DNA from: Telluria beijingensis
GTDB taxonomy: Bacteria; Pseudomonadota; Gammaproteobacteria; Burkholderiales; Burkholderiaceae_D
Assembly: GCF_030770395.1 (NCBI RefSeq)
Contig: NZ_CP132480.1
Span: 3,089,791 to 3,153,790 of the forward strand
Length of the DNA stretch: 64,000 bases
Direction: 5' to 3'
The position numbers were made by a program, and so were the translations under genes. Under the pieces are notes generated by a model that searched no databases, was not told where the DNA came from, and worked only from the letters and a program-made list of their open reading frames with translations. Below are positions 21,075 to 58,522 of this stretch, in pieces; within the stretch, counting starts at the first letter, position 1; each line of letters opens with the position of its first letter.

Positions 21075-22991
21075 TTATTCGCCCCGGGCCCGCGCCTCGA
21101 TGCGCTCCCAGCGGTCCAGCGCGTCGAGCAGCAGGTCCTCGATCTCGGCAAAGCGCGCATTGATGCGCTTGGCGTCGGCCGGATTCGTCTTGTAGAAGTC
21201 CGGCGCGTTCAGTTGCTGGGTGATGGCCGATTGCTCGTCCTCGAGGGTGGCGATCAGTTGCGGCAGTTCTTCCAGCTCGCGCTGTTCCTTGTAGCTCAGC
21301 TTGACCTTCTTGGCCGCTGCCGGGCTTGCAGGCGCCGCCTCTTCGGTCTTGGCCGGGCTCGCCTTCGCCGCGACCGGCGCCTGGACCACCGGGGCCGCGG
21401 CCCTGACGCGCTCCCAGTCAGTATAACCGCCCACATACTCGCGCCACTTGCCGCCGCCTTCGGCCACGATGACCTGGGTCACGACATTGTCCAGGAAGGT
21501 ACGGTCGTGGCTGACGAGGAAGACGGTGCCGGTGTATTCCTCGAGCAGTTCTTCCAGCAGCTCGAGGGTATCGATGTCGAGGTCGTTGGTCGGTTCGTCC
21601 AGCACCAGGCAGTTGGCCGGCTTGGCGAACAGGCGCGCCAGCAGCAGGCGGTTGCGTTCGCCGCCAGAGAGCGACTTGACCGGCGAACGCGCCCGCTCCG
21701 GCGAGAACAGGAAGTCGTTCAGGTAAGTCATGACGTGCTTGCGCTGGCCATTGATCTCGACCCAGTCGCTGCCCGGCGCGATGGTGTCGGCCAGGCTCGC
21801 CTCTTCGTTGAGCTGGGTGCGCATCTGGTCGAAATATGCCACGTTCAGCTTGGTGCCGAGACGCACGGCGCCGCTGTCGGCGGTTTCCTCGCCCAGGATG
21901 ATCTTGAGCAGGGTGGTCTTGCCGGCGCCGTTCGGGCCGATCAGGCCGACCTTGTCGCCGCGCATGATGGTGCCGGTGAAATGCTCGACGATGACCTTGT
22001 CGCCGTAGCGCTTCGACACGCCTTCGAGGTCAGCCACGATCTTGCCGGAGCGCTCGCCGGTGGCGACGTCGAGCTTGATCTGGCCCTGCTGGTCGCGGCG
22101 CGCGGCGCGCTGCAGGCGCAGCGCTTCCAGGCGGCGCACGCGGCCTTCGTCGCGGGTACGGCGCGCCTGCACGCCCTTGCGGATCCACACTTCTTCTTGC
22201 GCCAAAAATTTATCGAACTTGGCGTTCTCGACTTCTTCATTGGCCAGCAGTTCGCGCTTGCGCTCCTGGTAGGTCGTGAAATTGCCAGGGAACGACAGCA
22301 GGATGCCGCGGTCGAGTTCGATGATGCGGGTGGAGACATTGTCCAGGAAGCTGCGATCGTGGGTGATGAACAGGATCGAGCCGCGGAAGTCGCGCAGCAA
22401 GCTCTCCAGCCACTTGATCGAAGTAAAGTCCAGGTGGTTGGTCGGTTCGTCGAGCAGCAGCACGTCGGGCGCCGACACCAGGGCCACGGCCAGCGCCACG
22501 CGCTTCTGCATGCCGCCGGACAAGGTGCCCATCTTCGCATCGCCCGCCAGGTTCAGGCGGCCCAGCGTGGTCTCGACCTTGTTCGCCAGGTTCCAGCCAT
22601 CGGTGGCGTCGAGTTTGGTCTGCAGCACGTGCATGCGCTCCATCAGGGCGTCGTCGTCGCCCTGGCCGAACTTGCCGGTGAGCTCTTCATATTCCGTCAG
22701 CATCGCCTGCTGGTCGCCCATGCCCAGTGCGACCACCTCGAACACCGACATCTCCGGGTCGAATACCGGTTCCTGCTCCACGTAGGCGATGCTCAGGCCC
22801 TGCTGCATGACGAGCAGGCCGTCGTCGAGTTTCGAGCGGCCCGAGATAATCTTCAGGAGCGAGGATTTGCCGGTGCCGTTACGGCCGATGAGGCCGACGC
22901 GCTCGCCGGTTTCCAGCGAAAAATCGGCGTGGTCGAGCAGCGGGACGTGGCCGAAGGCCAGTTGCGCGGAAGTGAGGGAGATGACTGCCAT
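21075..22991 (-). CDS. uup: ABC-F ATPase, Uup type
   Basis: A 638-aa soluble tandem ABC ATPase of the ABC-F group, ribosome-associated rather than a transporter. First domain: MAVISLTSAQLAFGHVPLLD, Walker A GRNGTGKSS, signature TLSGGMQKRVALA. Second domain: Walker A GPNGAGKTT, signature KSLSGGERNRLLLA. The linker between them is rich in charged residues. The tail (about 550-638) has an Ala/Pro linker and a coiled coil (LSYKEQRELEELPQL), the Uup DNA-binding coiled-coil region. ATG 22991 begins the conserved core. Confidence 0.92.
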   Translation of the reverse strand: MAVISLTSAQLAFGHVPLLDHADFSLETGERVGLIGRNGTGKSSLLKIISGRSKLDDGLLVMQQGLSIAYVEQEPVFDPEMSVFEVVALGMGDQQAMLTEYEELTGKFGQGDDDALMERMHVLQTKLDATDGWNLANKVETTLGRLNLAGDAKMGTLSGGMQKRVALAVALVSAPDVLLLDEPTNHLDFTSIKWLESLLRDFRGSILFITHDRSFLDNVSTRIIELDRGILLSFPGNFTTYQERKRELLANEEVENAKFDKFLAQEEVWIRKGVQARRTRDEGRVRRLEALRLQRAARRDQQGQIKLDVATGERSGKIVADLEGVSKRYGDKVIVEHFTGTIMRGDKVGLIGPNGAGKTTLLKIILGEETADSGAVRLGTKLNVAYFDQMRTQLNEEASLADTIAPGSDWVEINGQRKHVMTYLNDFLFSPERARSPVKSLSGGERNRLLLARLFAKPANCLVLDEPTNDLDIDTLELLEELLEEYTGTVFLVSHDRTFLDNVVTQVIVAEGGGKWREYVGGYTDWERVRAAAPVVQAPVAAKASPAKTEEAAPASPAAAKKVKLSYKEQRELEELPQLIATLEDEQSAITQQLNAPDFYKTNPADAKRINARFAEIEDLLLDALDRWERIEARARGE

Positions 22992-23142
22992 ATTCGGTGT
23001 GCGGCCCGGTGCGGGAACTGGTCGCCGGCGCGGGCAAAAGCGTGAGTTGATTGAGTAAGGCGCACATTGTACCGACTGCACGGGCCGGCGGCGTCAATTC
23101 TCGGATATTCAGGGGGAGCGCAACAGCTGCAGGAAGGGGAAA

Positions 23143-23217
23143 TGGTATCGCCAGCAGGAATCGAACCTGCATCTAACCCTTAGGAGGGGCTTGTACTATC
23201 CATTGTACGATGGCGAC
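23143..23217 (-). tRNA. tRNA-Arg (anticodon CCT)
   Basis: Read on the minus strand, this 75-nt sequence folds as a cloverleaf. The acceptor GTCGCCA pairs with TGGCGAT, the D arm is GTAC/GTAC with loop AATGGATA, and the anticodon arm is AGCCC-CTCCTAA-GGGTT. The T arm is GCAGG-TTCGATT-CCTGC. The discriminator is A and CCA is encoded. The anticodon CCT reads AGG (Arg). It is the intact counterpart of the interrupted gene at 24375-24801. Confidence 0.95.
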
Positions 23218-23405: not shown

Positions 23406-23756
23406 ATGCGCAGGCAGACCTGTCTCGGTTTGATGTTGCCGCTCACGGCGCTGGCCGCGCCCTACTCTCCAACCATGGATGGCAACCGCTTCATCGAGAT
23501 GATGAGCCACCCGTCGCCTTCCGGCCAGGCCTACCTGGACCGCGAGAAAGCCTACAGCTACCTCGACGGCCTGCGCGACGGCGCCGAGGGTCGGGTCTGG
23601 TGCGACGTGAGCCAGCTCAAGACGCCGGACCTGGCATACGAGATGGCCAGCAAGCTCGCACAGCTTCCGGCCACCGAGCGCAAGAAAAACGCTTCGCAGC
23701 TATTGCTGGAGCAACTGGGTCGCACCTACCCTTGCCGCAACGGCGGCAAGCGATGA
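23406..23756 (+). CDS. tai4: T6SS amidase immunity protein, Tai4-like
   Basis: A 116-aa periplasmic protein. A perfect AGGAGG site precedes ATG 23406; residues 1-18 form a signal peptide ending ALAA. The mature helical part (MDGNRFIEMMSHPS, YSYLDGLRDGAEGRVWCD, QLLLEQLGRTYPC) has two conserved cysteines, as in Tai4/Rap1a-type immunity proteins that block peptidoglycan amidase effectors. The next gene is a Tae4-type amidase and overlaps it by 4 bp (ATGA), the strongest argument for the call. Immunity precedes toxin, which ensures protection is made first. No T6SS structural gene is present in the window. Confidence 0.78.
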   Translation: MRRQTCLGLMLPLTALAAPYSPTMDGNRFIEMMSHPSPSGQAYLDREKAYSYLDGLRDGAEGRVWCDVSQLKTPDLAYEMASKLAQLPATERKKNASQLLLEQLGRTYPCRNGGKR

Positions 23757-24211
23757 AACCGCTTTTCGCCGTGCTGAACCAGCATTATCCCAGGCACGAG
23801 AGCAAGGAAAACCTGTACCGCCGGATAGGCTGGGCCGACGTCATCCAGCATCCCGGCTTCAACGATACCTGCGCCATCCGGATGAGCGTCGGACTCGCAG
23901 GCGCCGGCGTGCCCGTGCGCGGCGCGATGAAGGCGAAATTGGGCGACCTCAAGAACAAGCGTATCGAACCGCGCCAGGCAAATCTTTCGCGCATGCTCAG
24001 GGGGCTATGGGGCGAGCCCGACATCTATGCCAGCGAGCAGGATGCGCGCGACGGCATTGCCAACCGCAGCGGCGTGATTTCCTTCTTTCGCATCGGCGGC
24101 GGCCCGGGCGGCCACATCGACTTGATCTCACCCGGCCCGTATGGATTCCCGCAATGCGCCCGCAGCTGCTTCTTCGCATCCGAGGAAATCTGGTTCTGGC
24201 CGCTGCAATGA
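23753..24211 (+). CDS. tae4: T6SS peptidoglycan amidase effector, Tae4-like
   Basis: A 152-aa NlpC/P60-like amidase of the Tae4 family that cleaves the D-Glu-mDAP bond of peptidoglycan in rival cells. The catalytic Cys is in NDTCAIRMSVGLAGAG. The His is in GGPGGHIDLISPG. A further cysteine pair, QCARSC, near the C-terminus probably forms the disulfide seen in Tae4. No signal peptide, as expected for a T6SS-delivered effector. The start overlaps the stop of tai4. The pair sits between a tRNA gene and a mobile-element block, suggesting acquired cargo. Confidence 0.83.
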   Translation: MKPLFAVLNQHYPRHESKENLYRRIGWADVIQHPGFNDTCAIRMSVGLAGAGVPVRGAMKAKLGDLKNKRIEPRQANLSRMLRGLWGEPDIYASEQDARDGIANRSGVISFFRIGGGPGGHIDLISPGPYGFPQCARSCFFASEEIWFWPLQ

Positions 24212-24237
24212 CCCTGGCGGCGTCAGGACGCGCCGCC

Positions 24238-24326
24238 ATCCTCCACCCGCAGCGTGTGCTTCATGGTCGACAACAAAGCGACCATGCCCGCCTTGTCCTC
24301 GCCGGGTATATCCGCCAGCATCTCCT
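24238..24326 (-). repeat. Partial duplicate of the marR 3' end
   Basis: An 89-bp stretch about 90% identical by eye to 25190-25278, the last codons of the marR gene, in the same orientation. It encodes EMLADIPGEDKAGMVALLST, as in the intact protein, then stops. It is not a gene: no start and no DNA-binding domain. Together the two copies form direct repeats around the 24.33-25.19 kb block of IS relics and the split tRNA. Confidence 0.85.
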
Positions 24327-24374
24327 TTGCAAGCGCGTCTTGCGAGGCTCCGCCGTCTTGGCAACACTTGCCTC

Positions 24375-24801
24375 CTCTCCGTAGCACAATGGATAGTGCA
24401 CATGCCTGCTATCAAAAACGTGAACAAATGTGCTCAGCGTTTTCTTCCTGCCCCGAACCGTCCTATTGACCGTGCTCGTATCTGACAGGCGTGACTTTCC
24501 CGCCTACCATCGGCAAAACGCCGGAAGTAGTGCCTGACGTTGCCGTCAGACTCGCCACGGGTAGCGCAGCATGCGTCGCGAGGACGCTGGTTGCGAGCCG
24601 TCTTTCATATGTAAGTTGGCAAGGAGCTGATTCGACGACCGCATTCTTACACTCTCGTTCTTCCGCTTGGTTTTCGCGGAATGGAAGAGCAATTCAATAG
24701 CACTGCGTCTTACCTGCTTACGTAGTTTCAGACACCGAGACCCCGACCAGAGTTCCGCTCCTAAGCGTGGGATACTGGTTCGATTCCAGTCGGGGGGACC
24801 A
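24375..24801 (+). pseudogene. tRNA-Arg(CCT) gene split in the anticodon loop
   Basis: The 5' half (24375-24407) and 3' half (24760-24801) join to a perfect 75-nt tRNA. Acceptor CTCTCCG pairs with CGGGGGG, the D arm is GCAC/GTGC with loop AATGGATA (same loop as the intact tRNA-Arg), and the anticodon arm is CATGC-CTCCTAA-GCGTG. The T arm is ACTGG-TTCGATT-CCAGT, then A and CCA. The halves are separated by a 352-bp insert between T33 and C34. All stems pair across the gap, so the gene was functional before insertion, or is still functional if the insert is removed from RNA. Confidence 0.85.
24408..24759 (-). mobile_element. IS607-type relic (tnpB 3' end plus left end) inside the tRNA
   Basis: The left ~200 bp match the end of the intact IS607-type tnpB at 46611-46810 (shared TGCTATCAAA, TGACAGGCGTGACTTTCCCG, CAGACTCGCCACGGGTAGCG). 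The last ~35 bp (CAGACACCGAG, then AGAGTTCCGCT) match the opposite end of that element at 48607-48640. It is thus an internally deleted derivative with both ends, resembling a MITE. The tnpB-like strand is minus. It keeps the region that in TnpB elements encodes the guide (omega) RNA. Confidence 0.75.
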
Positions 24802-24838
24802 CCCTCTTCAGCACGTCACGCCGATTCTGCCAGCAGGC

Positions 24839-25079
24839 GCGGAACTGCGCCGATTTTCCGATGTCATAATCACGTAGTCAGCCATCAGGCTCGCACCCTG
24901 CGTCTTCACGACGCGATCTGCGCTACCCGTGGCGAGTCCAGCGGCAACGCTGGGCACTGCCGCCGTTCTGTTATCGGCGGGAGGCGGGAAAGTCACGCCT
25001 GTCAGATACGAGCACGGTCAGCAAGACGACTCGGGGCAGGAAGAAAGCATATGCGCAGGCATGTGCTCTCGATAGCAGG
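24839..25079 (+). mobile_element. Second IS607-type tnpB 3'-end relic, opposite orientation
   Basis: The reverse complement shares CCTGCTATC, TGACAGGCGTGACTTTCCCG and ACTCGCCACGGGTAGCG with the intact element and with the relic at 24408-24759. The inner part has diverged. The other end shows a weak left-end match, AGTTCCGC. Immediately outside its tnpB end, at 25085-25096, the minus strand reads AATGGATAGTAC, the D-loop sequence of tRNA-Arg. This suggests the same kind of target. Bases 25097-25180 show nothing recognisable. Confidence 0.65.
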
Positions 25080-25180
25080 ACCCCGTACTATCCATTCGGC
25101 CTTAACGCCGCCATGGTTGTACGCTCGGTGAAAATGTTCGACCTTCTGCGCGGGCAACGCTGTGACGTCGCCCGCGCCTT

Positions 25181-25699
25181 TCACGTCGCATCATCGACCC
25201 GCAGCTTGCGCTTCATGGTCGACAACAACGCCACCATGCCCGCCTTGTCCTCTCCAGGTATATCCGCCAGCATCTCCTCGATCCAGCGCTCGTGCACCGC
25301 CGCCATCTCGGCAAACGCCACCCTGCCCGCCTCGGTCAGCTTGACCGCCGACGCCCGCCGGTCGCGCGCATCCTGCACCCGCACGACCAGTTCCTCGCGC
25401 TCGAGCTGGTCGGTGATCCCGGTGATATTCCCCCCGGTCACCATCATGCGCTTCGACAGCTCGCCCATGCGCAAACCTTCCGGATGCCGCTCCAGTTGCG
25501 CCATCAGGTCGAAGCGCGGCAGGGTAATGCCGAAGGTGGTGCGCAGGCGGCTGCGGATCTCGTTCTCGATGCGCGTCGTGCACGACAGCATGCGCAGCCA
25601 CAGCCGCAGCGACTGGTGGTGTTCGTCCGTCAGGCGGCTTTCCAGGTCCAGGTCGGCCGCGTCGTCGTCGCCGGCCCGTGTGCGCCTGTCGTCATCCAT
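25181..25699 (-). CDS. MarR-family transcriptional regulator
   Basis: A 172-aa winged-helix regulator. The core includes RIENEIRSRLRTTFGITLPRF (helix 1), LMAQLERHPEGLRMGELSKR, the recognition part VTGGNITGITDQLEREELV, and the wing VQDARDRRASAVKLTEAGR. It lies 7 bp downstream of the CoA ligase gene on the same strand, so it likely senses the aromatic acid or its CoA ester and controls that gene. Its 3' end is duplicated at 24238-24326. Confidence 0.9.
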   Translation of the reverse strand: MDDDRRTRAGDDDAADLDLESRLTDEHHQSLRLWLRMLSCTTRIENEIRSRLRTTFGITLPRFDLMAQLERHPEGLRMGELSKRMMVTGGNITGITDQLEREELVVRVQDARDRRASAVKLTEAGRVAFAEMAAVHERWIEEMLADIPGEDKAGMVALLSTMKRKLRVDDAT

Positions 25700-46515: not shown

Positions 46516-46617
46516 GGCATATCCTTGGACAGAAAATAAGGGAATCATCGAAAACAACGATCACCTTTTTAACTGCCGCCCACCCGACCTCGTTTGATAT
46601 TGATCAGCTACCTGCTA

Positions 46618-47964
46618 TCAAAGACGTGAGCAAATGTGCTCAGCGTCCTCTTCCTGCCCTGAGCCGTCCTGCTGACCGTACTCATACCTGACAGGCGTGA
46701 CTTTCCCGCCTCCCGCCAACAGTATGTTGGCGGCAGTGCCTGACGTTACCGTCAGACTCGCCACGGGTAGCGCCGTTATCGCCACGAGGGCGTCGGTGGC
46801 GAGCCGTTCCAGGTTGATCGCCGCGTTCACATCACGATCATGGCGCGCGCCGCACTGGCAGCTCCATTCGCGCTCACCTAATTTCAACGCAGCGTAATGT
46901 GCACCACATGCCGAGCACAATTTGCTCGATGGGTACCAGCGATCAGCCACTACCAGCAAGGTACGATAACGCTGCGCCTTGTACTGAAGCTGGCGCCGTA
47001 TCTCGTCAAATCCGACGTCCGCAATCGCGCGCGCCAGCCGGTGATTGGCCAGCATTCCGCGCATATTCAGATCCTCGATCGCCACCGCTTGGTTTTCGCG
47101 GCACAATCGCGTCGTCAGTTTGTGGGTGAAATCGGCACGGACATGCGCGATCCGCGCATGCGTTCGTGCCAGGGCCCGCGCGCTCTTTTTGCGATTGCAG
47201 GATACCGGCAAGCGCGCGCCTTTGGGTATTGCACCAACGATGCCAGCAGCCTTCTTTTCGGCCTTCAGTTTACGCGTATGGCGTCGAGAGCGGATGCGCA
47301 GCCGCCGCTTCGACTTTCGTAATGGCCGAGGTGCCGAGATCTTTTCCCCGCTGGATAGGACCGCTGCGGCGCTTATGCCAAGATCGACGCCGATCACACC
47401 ATCGCCACTGCGCTGCAGAATGCTCTCCTGCTCTGGCAGATCGATTTGCACCGCAAGATACCAGTGGTCCGCTTCACGTAATACGTACGCTCCCATGATT
47501 TTGCCAGTCAACCGCAGGGACTCGACCAGCGCCACCTTGCCGATTTTTGGCAGCACAGCATACTTGCCCTCCAGTCGAACCTTGTCATTGGCGATATAAA
47601 AGCTATCCCTGCATCTGCCTTTCTTCTTGAACACTGGCGGGAAGGCACGCTCTCCAGCTTGTCGCTGCTTGAAGTAGTGGCTCAATGCGCGCTCCAAATG
47701 CATGAACGGCTGTGAATGCGCGTCTCGGTGAATTGTTTTTAGCCACGGATTGCCTTGCTCATCAAGCCAGTCCGGATGGACATACTTGATCGCGTTGAAC
47801 GCCTTTTTCAGCGCCTTCGCCTGTGGCCGCTGCCCTAACTCCACTTGCCTGTGCCACTCAGCCAGGGCCCAGTTCCAGACCTTGCGTGCTGTTCCCGCCG
47901 CACGTGCGAAGTAATCGCTCTGCTCGGGCGTGGCTTCAAGCCGGATTCGGTGCGCCAACATCAT
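46618..47964 (-). CDS. tnpB: TnpB RNA-guided nuclease (IS607 type)
   Basis: A 448-aa TnpB. RuvC residues: Asp in VIGVDLGISAAAVLS, Glu in AVAIEDLNMRGML, Asp in HDRDVNAAINLERL. Zinc finger CSACG and CQCG. N-terminal helical and WED-like part (HRIRLEATPEQSDYFARAAG). All catalytic positions are present, so the nuclease may be active. The 3' end of the gene and the ~10 bp after it should encode the omega RNA, with the guide taken from DNA beyond 46611. The N-terminus overlaps tnpA by 29 bp. Confidence 0.93.
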   Translation of the reverse strand: MMLAHRIRLEATPEQSDYFARAAGTARKVWNWALAEWHRQVELGQRPQAKALKKAFNAIKYVHPDWLDEQGNPWLKTIHRDAHSQPFMHLERALSHYFKQRQAGERAFPPVFKKKGRCRDSFYIANDKVRLEGKYAVLPKIGKVALVESLRLTGKIMGAYVLREADHWYLAVQIDLPEQESILQRSGDGVIGVDLGISAAAVLSSGEKISAPRPLRKSKRRLRIRSRRHTRKLKAEKKAAGIVGAIPKGARLPVSCNRKKSARALARTHARIAHVRADFTHKLTTRLCRENQAVAIEDLNMRGMLANHRLARAIADVGFDEIRRQLQYKAQRYRTLLVVADRWYPSSKLCSACGAHYAALKLGEREWSCQCGARHDRDVNAAINLERLATDALVAITALPVASLTVTSGTAANILLAGGGKVTPVRYEYGQQDGSGQEEDAEHICSRL

Positions 47965-48577
47965 GCTCTGTGTCCTTGTTGAGTGCAGCGTTGAGCTGTT
48001 TGCGGTAGTTTCGCAGCCCGTACAAGCGGCTAGAGAAACAGTGCATGATGGTCACCATGTCTTGCACCATCTCCTGTTCCGGGGATAGCCGTTCCTGGTT
48101 CAACACGAGCAGCTCACCGCCGTGCTTTTGCGCAAGATGCTCGAACCACTCATAGCCAAAACGTGTCAGCCGATCCCGGTGCGCCAGGATGAGCATCCGC
48201 ACCTCGCGTCGGGCGATCGCATCGGTCAGATCTAGCAAGCCACGCCGCTTGAAGTTCAATCCGCCGCAATCTCTTCAACAAATTCGACATTCGCCAAACC
48301 GCGCGCCGAGCAAAATTCCTCTAGAACCCTGCGCTGGTTGCGCAAATCAGGTTTTTACGCGGTACTCGATACTCTGCAGTAGTCGACGATTCGTTGCGCC
48401 GCAGGGCGTGACTGCAATCCAATATGTTCTGAAATTTGCGCTTCAACTATAAAGGCGCAGACCGGTCGGGATACGCGCGAGCGGAGAGAAAGTGCCGCAG
48501 CGGTCCCAGCGTTGCAATGGCTTGGGCGTCACCCCAAGGCGACGTGCTGCAGCTCCCGTCTTGAACGTTGTTTCCAT
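47936..48577 (-). pseudogene. tnpA: IS607-type serine recombinase TnpA, disrupted
   Basis: Begins METTFKTGAAARRLGVTPKP with a MerR-like helix-turn-helix, then stops after GLRLYS. Fragments in other frames (YCRVSS, RRVLEEFCSARGLANVEF) lead to an open C-terminal part (LNFKRRGLLDLTDAIARREV, ILAHRDRLTRFGYEW, HCFSSRLYGLRNYRKQL). At least two frameshifts or stops separate the HTH from the resolvase core, so the element cannot move on its own. Confidence 0.88.
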
Positions 48578-48844
48578 GGTGTCTCTCCATACACACCTAC
48601 GTATGCTCAGACACGAGAACTGGGACTAGAGTTCCGCTCCCCAAACATCCTGGATGAATAATATCGACACTGGACAATGTCATATTTCAGCCTACACTTG
48701 ATATGCCTGCCACAGCCGTGATCTTCCCGACAAGCCGCAAGCCCGCCTATTTGTCGTCAAACTGTAATTAACTGTCTTCTATGTCAGGAGGATGTGTTAA
48801 TTGGACACTTGGTCTTATACAATGGCAGACCAAGGAGAAAATGT

Positions 48845-58194: not shown

Positions 58195-58400
58195 CGCGCT
58201 TCCACCTGTTTGGCCGGTATCCGGGCTGGCAAGCATGACGGCCTCACCTTCCTGCGCGTCATGCACAGTGGTTGTCGAGACCGCCTGCCGCGCTGCAAGA
58301 GCAGGCGCGGCGCTTGTTGACCGTTGCGGGGGCAGCACACCTCCATGGCGGCGCGGGGCGCGGCCATGTCGTGTTTCCCGTTTAACTTCGCGCACCTGGA
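58195..58400 (-). promoter_or_regulatory. Cobalamin riboswitch
   Basis: Minus-strand order: GAAACACGACATGG, then GTGCTGCCCCCGCAACGGTC (consensus GCUGCCCCCGCAACUGU), CCACTGTGCATGACG, GGAAGGTGAGGCCGTCATG, and the B12 box AGCCCGGATACCGGCC at about 58206-58224. It ends ~85 bp before btuB and should turn off btuB-btuF when B12 is bound. Limits are approximate. Confidence 0.9.
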
Positions 58401-58522
58401 CGCGCGCGAGAGCACCAAAACGGGGCGATTATAACCTGACAAGCCGCCCGCTGCCCGGCCGCCGGCAGCCTGGCGCGGGATCGGCTACCATCGTCGTTTT
58501 CATGCTCATCACGGGAGTGTCC

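Follow-up and report, generated by a model that had tools for sequence, protein, structure and literature searches.

The anticodon loop is one of the places used by tRNA introns, classically by group I introns in the tRNA-Arg(CCU) gene of Agrobacterium and the tRNA-Ile gene of Azoarcus. Putative group I introns are also described in tRNA-Arg(TCT) genes of large sulfur bacteria (PMC4853749), and IStrons, in which a group I intron is joined to an IS605 or IS607 element, include IS607-type members that PMC4227781 reports only from Firmicutes and Fusobacteria. At a tRNA-Thr locus of Caldiarchaeum that is disrupted by a mobile element, an orphan tRNA 5' fragment lies 1.8 kb from another copy (PMC3293823). 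For IS607 elements, GG is reported as the shared dinucleotide (PMC6188088), and their RNA-guided TnpB proteins use a guide RNA that is encoded at the right end (RE) and whose guide portion derives from the adjoining DNA (PMC11061315, PMC10711439). Among RAGATH-18-type IS607 TnpBs the TAM is AGGAG in 18/22 strains and GAGGG in 4/22, and AG-rich motifs adjoin the left end (LE) of these elements (PMC11061315); TnpB of ISXfa1, also an IS607 element, prefers GGG (PMC10711439).

Here we describe a tRNA-Arg(CCT) gene of Telluria beijingensis interrupted in the anticodon loop by a 352-bp IS607-type mini-element, located in a 64,000-nucleotide stretch of DNA (the window, whose positions are used throughout). 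As in IS607 elements and their gene-less derivatives, both ends are common to a TnpB/TnpA element in the same genome, the target is G-rich, and there is no target-site duplication beyond the shared dinucleotide; unlike in those described, the core is AG instead of GG, and the 352-bp, gene-less insert sits inside a tRNA gene. The interruption of a tRNA-Arg gene in its anticodon loop recalls group I introns, but the locus gave no Rfam match, the insert has IS607-type ends and copies elsewhere in the genome, and the promoter motif is lost. IStrons likewise interrupt genes with IS607-type ends, but no ribozyme was found here and the host falls outside the phyla reported in PMC4227781. With the Caldiarchaeum case, as described in PMC3293823, the locus shares a mobile element at a tRNA gene and an orphan tRNA 5' fragment; that system is archaeal and integrase-type, and intron gain with splicing is proposed for it, whereas ours is bacterial and IS607-type, and no splicing is expected. 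The likeness to RNA-guided IS607 systems (PMC11061315, PMC10711439) extends to an RE guide RNA, a guide read from flanking DNA and AGGAG as a published TAM, but in our case a tRNA half is predicted to serve as the guide, and trans action of TnpB would be required. Taken together, we consider it highly likely that the interrupted gene, which we call B, is an inactivated relic carrying a gene-less IS607 derivative, and that a second, intact gene, A, is the working one.

An IS607-type mini-element in the anticodon loop of tRNA-Arg(CCT)

The two halves of the B-type gene lie on the + strand, the 5' half from the acceptor strand to T33 at 24375-24407 (33 nt) and the 3' half from the anticodon to the CCA at 24760-24801 (42 nt, CCA included). 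When joined, they were called by ARAGORN as a complete 75-nt tRNA-Arg(CCT) cloverleaf with every stem paired, including three T.G wobbles (two in the acceptor stem, one in the anticodon stem), whereas no tRNA was called on the unjoined window sequence at 24375-24801. Homologues agree with this assignment: a full-length B gene with 85-100% identity is present in 29/62 genomes of the genus, so that the halves are no chance match, and the uninterrupted gene that the earlier note suggested looking for in relatives does exist. The commonest B allele among the fetched loci differs from the joined halves only at acceptor position 4, where the T.G pair is kept, and a B query matches its own genome split, as 1-37 and 32-75. 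The earlier note had placed the insertion exactly between T33 and C34; the anticodon loop is right, but the insert is flanked on either side by CT (C32-T33), which leaves the exact junction ambiguous by these 2 nt. Relatives have a single CT at the uninterrupted site.

The insert itself (24408-24759, minus strand in the omegaRNA sense, with RE at 24408 and LE at 24759) was delimited by alignment with four further loci (L002, L003, L004 and L005), the copy in the relative genome G011 and the full-length element of the window; alignment A2 omits L005, L018, L020, L021 and a second decayed copy, which are partial or divergent. It holds both IS607-type ends and a guide-RNA region and no gene. Three other copies in the same genome are 90-93% identical and one is 72% identical, and the G011 copy shows 91% identity. 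As the earlier note had it, the insert carries both ends of the element at 46.6 kb: its left ~195 bp correspond to the RE region of that element (82% identity), a region that also matches elements in many relatives, and the right terminus AGAGTTCCGCT is common to both. Read along the omegaRNA strand, all copies inspected at RE terminate in GCAG, and LE starts with AGCGGAAC in 5/8 copies seen; we therefore take AG (CT on the tRNA strand) as the crossover core. The crossover thus falls at a shared dinucleotide without target-site duplication, as in IS607, with AG/CT in place of GG.

The full-length element (46614-48638, minus strand; Pfam and NCBIfam) combines an open tnpB frame at 46621-48051 with a broken tnpA. 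The tnpB product matches Pfam HTH_OrfB_IS605, OrfB_IS605 and Cas12f1-like_TNB as well as NCBIfam guided_TnpB (NF040570, 263.5 bits against a cut-off of 100), while the narrower 'exception' models stay under their cut-offs (IS607_TnpB, 226.3 of 350; IS200_TnpB, 258 of 425). The tnpA gene lies in separate pieces (47939-48625), of which the one at 47939-48274 matches NF033518 transpos_IS607 (E 2.9e-30; 105.2 bits, cut-off 110) and, above cut-off, Pfam Resolvase; for the N-terminal piece, a MerR match below its cut-off was the sole result. Because this tnpA is broken, the transposase that moved the mini-element would have come from elsewhere or from an earlier state of the element.

Distribution of the two tRNA-Arg(CCT) alleles across the genus

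The intact A-type tRNA-Arg(CCT) gene lies 1.16 kb away at 23143-23217 on the minus strand, where the earlier note had seen it, and was the only one found in the genome by ARAGORN, an RF00005 inventory and the genus search. The inventory, which comprises 74 RF00005 matches with 74 tRNAs named by ARAGORN in those stretches and is incomplete since it lacks tRNA-Ile(GAT) and tRNA-Ala(TGC), contains no other tRNA-Arg(CCT), and the genus search returned only A and the two B halves for this genome. Across the 62 genomes, 29 carry a full-length B-like gene and 31 an A-like gene (which the B query matches in part, with 75-80% identity), one genome (83% complete) has neither, and the window genome alone has both. 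All 35 fetched loci (18 of the 29 B, L059-L076, and 17 of the 31 A, L077 and L079-L094) are tRNA-Arg(CCT) by ARAGORN and lie near the same ABC-F gene (21075-23081, minus strand, in the window), B on the opposite strand in 18/18 and A on the same strand in 17/17. Since both are found beside this gene, the two types seem to occupy a single locus as alternatives.

In a tree of 36 ABC-F protein sequences (one gene, FastTree local supports), the window genome forms a group with two relatives of type A (support 0.915), next to relatives of type B (0.989, 0.989). Its place among B-type relatives suggests a replacement of B by A in the ancestry of this genome, with the insert sitting in the relic. As other parts of the tree also show a mixture of A and B, such switches may be frequent. 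The proposal that the gene was killed by insertion and buffered by a second copy is thus supported in substance, with the correction that this copy is no duplicate but a different allele, which occupies the same locus in relatives.

Several further features were observed. Between the two tRNA-Arg genes lies a Rap1a-type immunity gene with a Tae4 amidase effector of type VI secretion (23406-24211, + strand, Pfam), for which no match at E 1e-8 was found in the 39 fetched loci searched. A cobalamin riboswitch is located at 58195-58434 (minus strand, 60 bits). Orphan copies of the B tRNA 3' end (22-25 nt) occur in five genomes (G002:C12:544844-544867, G066:C87:81985-82007, G025:C281, G029:C26 and G062:C140), in G002 and G066 at 12 and 16 kb from the gene, and are possibly attachment-site repeats of integrated islands. 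A plasmid search gave six partial matches, none covering the tRNA genes.

Promoter and divergence of the interrupted gene

In all 18 fetched B loci a CTATAAT motif starts 18-116 bp upstream of the tRNA gene. This motif is absent from the 300 bp upstream of the interrupted B gene, and a promoter scan found no + strand site in 24100-24374, so that the promoter of the relatives is not seen here; one promoter-like + strand site lies inside the insert (24482-24510). The region that holds the motif in most B-type relatives is occupied by a 90-bp duplicate of the 3' end of marR (24237-24326, minus strand; 91% identity to 25189-25278 in the marR gene at 25181-25699, minus strand), which is closest to marR of the same lineage.

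The good preservation of the halves, as would be expected of a spliced gene, speaks against a relic, but neutral change would leave a similar picture. Over its 352 bp the insert carries 5 or 7 private changes, depending on whether L005 is included, a rate that predicts 1.1-1.5 changes in 75 bp, and the tRNA halves have one. Conservation of the halves is for this reason uninformative, also as evidence for splicing: judged from the sequences, their divergence neither shows nor excludes constraint. Also against a relic, the split gene might be transcribed from a weak promoter or by read-through from the upstream + strand gene pair, and the promoter-like site inside the insert counts on the same side.

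The relic reading can be laid out as a series of steps. Beside the ABC-F gene there is normally a single tRNA-Arg(CCT), A or B, as in the fetched loci. Type A would have taken over in the lineage of the window genome, leaving type B redundant. A non-autonomous mini IS607-type element would then have entered B by serine-recombinase crossover at the AG/CT core, with TnpA presumably supplied in trans. The insert probably stays in any RNA made from the split gene, which lacks the promoter motif of its relatives, and the decoding of AGG would be left to the intact A gene.

The target motif at the insertion site

We next consider why this position was hit. Bases 32-36 read CTCCT in 37/37 tRNA-Arg(CCT) loci checked, the complement of which is AGGAG, and the insertion site accordingly presents AGGAG on the strand of the element, as the complement of C32-T33-C34-C35-T36. 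Among the eight copies seen, NGGAG precedes LE in four (the tRNA copy, the full element, L003 and the G011 copy); the full AGGAG is seen in just one of them, the tRNA copy. These mixed flanks, the GAGGG and GGG preferences of other IS607 TnpBs and the AG core in place of GG speak against AGGAG as the target motif of the element family, but the motif may have guided the insertion into the anticodon loop. Because the loop fits a known IS607 target through its decoding identity, no intron biology is needed to account for the place; the earlier note was right that bacterial group I introns use the same loop, but this coincidence appears better explained by the IS607 target motif.

A literature search over titles and abstract openings returned no report of anticodon loops interrupted by IS607 elements. 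When the junction pattern was searched in the 62 genomes of the genus with up to two mismatches, two exact matches were obtained, both in the window genome, together with nine further raw matches with 1-2 mismatches in eight other genomes. At one mismatch, raw one-mismatch matches were found in 10 other genomes of the order (399 genomes) and in 6 other genomes of the family (245 genomes); by eye, no tRNA was seen at one such family-level match in each of two genomes. An LE-side pattern run over genome contigs gave 61 matches in scattered phyla, with no Burkholderiales genus recognised in the titles; this is fewer than the ~100 expected by chance on a rough hand estimate, and the window's own genome was perhaps excluded. 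As these patterns fit the mini-element family's own ends, they would overlook tRNA-Arg genes hit by other IS607 subfamilies.

A second, decayed mini-element abuts an A-type tRNA-Arg fragment

The other exact junction match lies immediately downstream. Here, a second, decayed mini IS607 element is present in inverted orientation (about 24839-25076, + strand, recognised by its matches to the first element, with the left limit set by eye). Its segment 24888-25046 matches the first element at 81%, and an LE-like GCGGAACT is found at 24839-24846. Its RE is abutted at the C32-T33 point by a tRNA-Arg 5' fragment, AATGGATAGTACGGGGTCCT (25077-25096, minus strand), which in register matches the common A allele at 18/20 positions, the genome's own A at 16/20 and B at 14/20; the next best of the genome's 74 tRNAs reaches 14/20 at another register. 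On the LE side no recognisable tRNA half was found. Since the fragment fits A best, the pieces of tRNA-Arg next to the two mini-elements belong to different alleles, each cut at the same point. A 12-nt exact inverted match was also noticed between the B junction (24398-24409) and the terminal hairpin of the second element (25055-25069), which we cannot explain and which may be a template switch or chance.

The pair of elements at one point could reflect duplication and recombination within the locus, retention driven by the guide, or the fact that insertions survive only where the tRNA gene is redundant. That both derive from a single insertion, after which the locus was duplicated, inverted and recombined, is a serious contender, although we lean somewhat away from it. 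The two elements make up an inverted repeat whose 159-nt arms are spaced 288 nt apart, the marR fragment attests to local duplication, and the hairpin match to the B junction would fit a common origin. Moreover, two independent insertions are unlikely by chance, at 4.7e-6 for 8 copies, 2 target genes and an estimated 4,889 AGGAG sites, or 4.6e-4 if a tenth of these sites are tolerated, both crude values because most copies of the element family do not sit at AGGAG. Against a single insertion, however, the tRNA pieces come from different alleles, and the two elements differ by 19% over the 159 nt.

The omegaRNA-like region and its predicted guide

The RE part of the mini-element (24408-24601, minus strand) forms an omegaRNA-like scaffold region with a 61-pair consensus structure. 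In an alignment of 14 sequences, from which the structure was itself derived, 96.8% of cells are paired compared with 92.0% in shuffles, and 14 pairs show changes on both sides. Among 500 shuffles none scored as high in four of the five measures used; for the remaining measure, further pair types, 201 did so. Pairing in slid controls does not exceed 46.4%. These 14 sequences thus point to a conserved structured RNA at RE, part of whose conservation may be coding, as the region overlaps the end of tnpB in full elements. The scaffold of the tRNA copy is 82% identical to that of the full element, and by eye two pairs of one stem are broken.

The predicted guide, which follows the AG core, would be the tRNA 5' half on the minus strand, GCATGTGCACTATCCATTGT. 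It matches the empty B allele exactly over 20 nt behind AGGAG and has five mismatches to the A allele, four of them at guide positions 2-5. The mini-element might be kept in place by its tRNA-derived guide, with a TnpB supplied in trans from the 46.6-kb element, for which AGGAG would be the TAM, cutting uninterrupted B genes; the interrupted allele would thereby become fixed while A escapes through the seed mismatches. Beyond this match, the covarying scaffold, the open frame of the guided_TnpB family, the two elements at the same tRNA position and a published case of gene drive by TnpB, for IS200/605 in plasmids (PMC11870625), are in its favour. However, the scaffold has diverged and lost pairs as described above, and B-type genomes such as G004 carry relatives of the element, though with other guides; overall we regard such retention as quite improbable. 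In its widest form, IS607 elements would be natural parasites of tRNA-Arg(CCT): as the anticodon loop encodes an IS607 TAM, insertion would yield a tRNA-derived guide RNA, and a TnpB acting in trans would destroy uninterrupted alleles and so drive the replacement of one tRNA-Arg(CCT) allele by another with seed mismatches across the genus. We consider this a long shot. If it were true, the two tRNA-embedded elements would be footprints of allele replacement, and an interrupted allele with TnpB in trans would destroy intact B alleles and spare A.

Splicing of the insert

An Rfam search of 24230-25200 returned no family at E up to 5, and at the gathering threshold none was matched in four loci with sister copies. 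Hence no ribozyme core was found by covariance model in the region, and none joined to the IS ends, and neither a group I intron nor an IStron is supported as the identity of the insert; the group I model suggested as a check in the earlier note came out negative. That the insert is nevertheless intron-like, an IStron or a novel self-splicing RNA which leaves the transcript so that B still makes tRNA, agrees with its position in the anticodon loop, the intact stems, the single wobble-compatible change in 75 nt and the IStron and tRNA-Arg(TCT) precedents (PMC4227781, PMC4853749), but is hardly credible given the Rfam results, the report of IStrons only in Firmicutes and Fusobacteria (PMC4227781), the missing CTATAAT and the finding that the structured part of the insert coincides with the omegaRNA region, whose model lies on the other strand from the tRNA. 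Together with the neutral-looking divergence, these observations also argue against the earlier note's other option, that the insert leaves the RNA.

Implications

The spare B gene is very probably dead and its job done by the second gene, a situation that is ordinary in kind but unusually well resolved. For annotation, the locus is a warning that an interruption of a tRNA gene at the anticodon loop, taken alone, is no evidence for an intron. It captures a tRNA gene between replacement and loss, with the intact allele and the broken relic together in one genome and the empty site in relatives. Finally, the identity between a published IS607 TnpB target motif and the anticodon loop predicts that IS607 elements of other lineages can hit tRNA-Arg(CCT) at the same point, and that such insertions would be survivable only where the tRNA is redundant.
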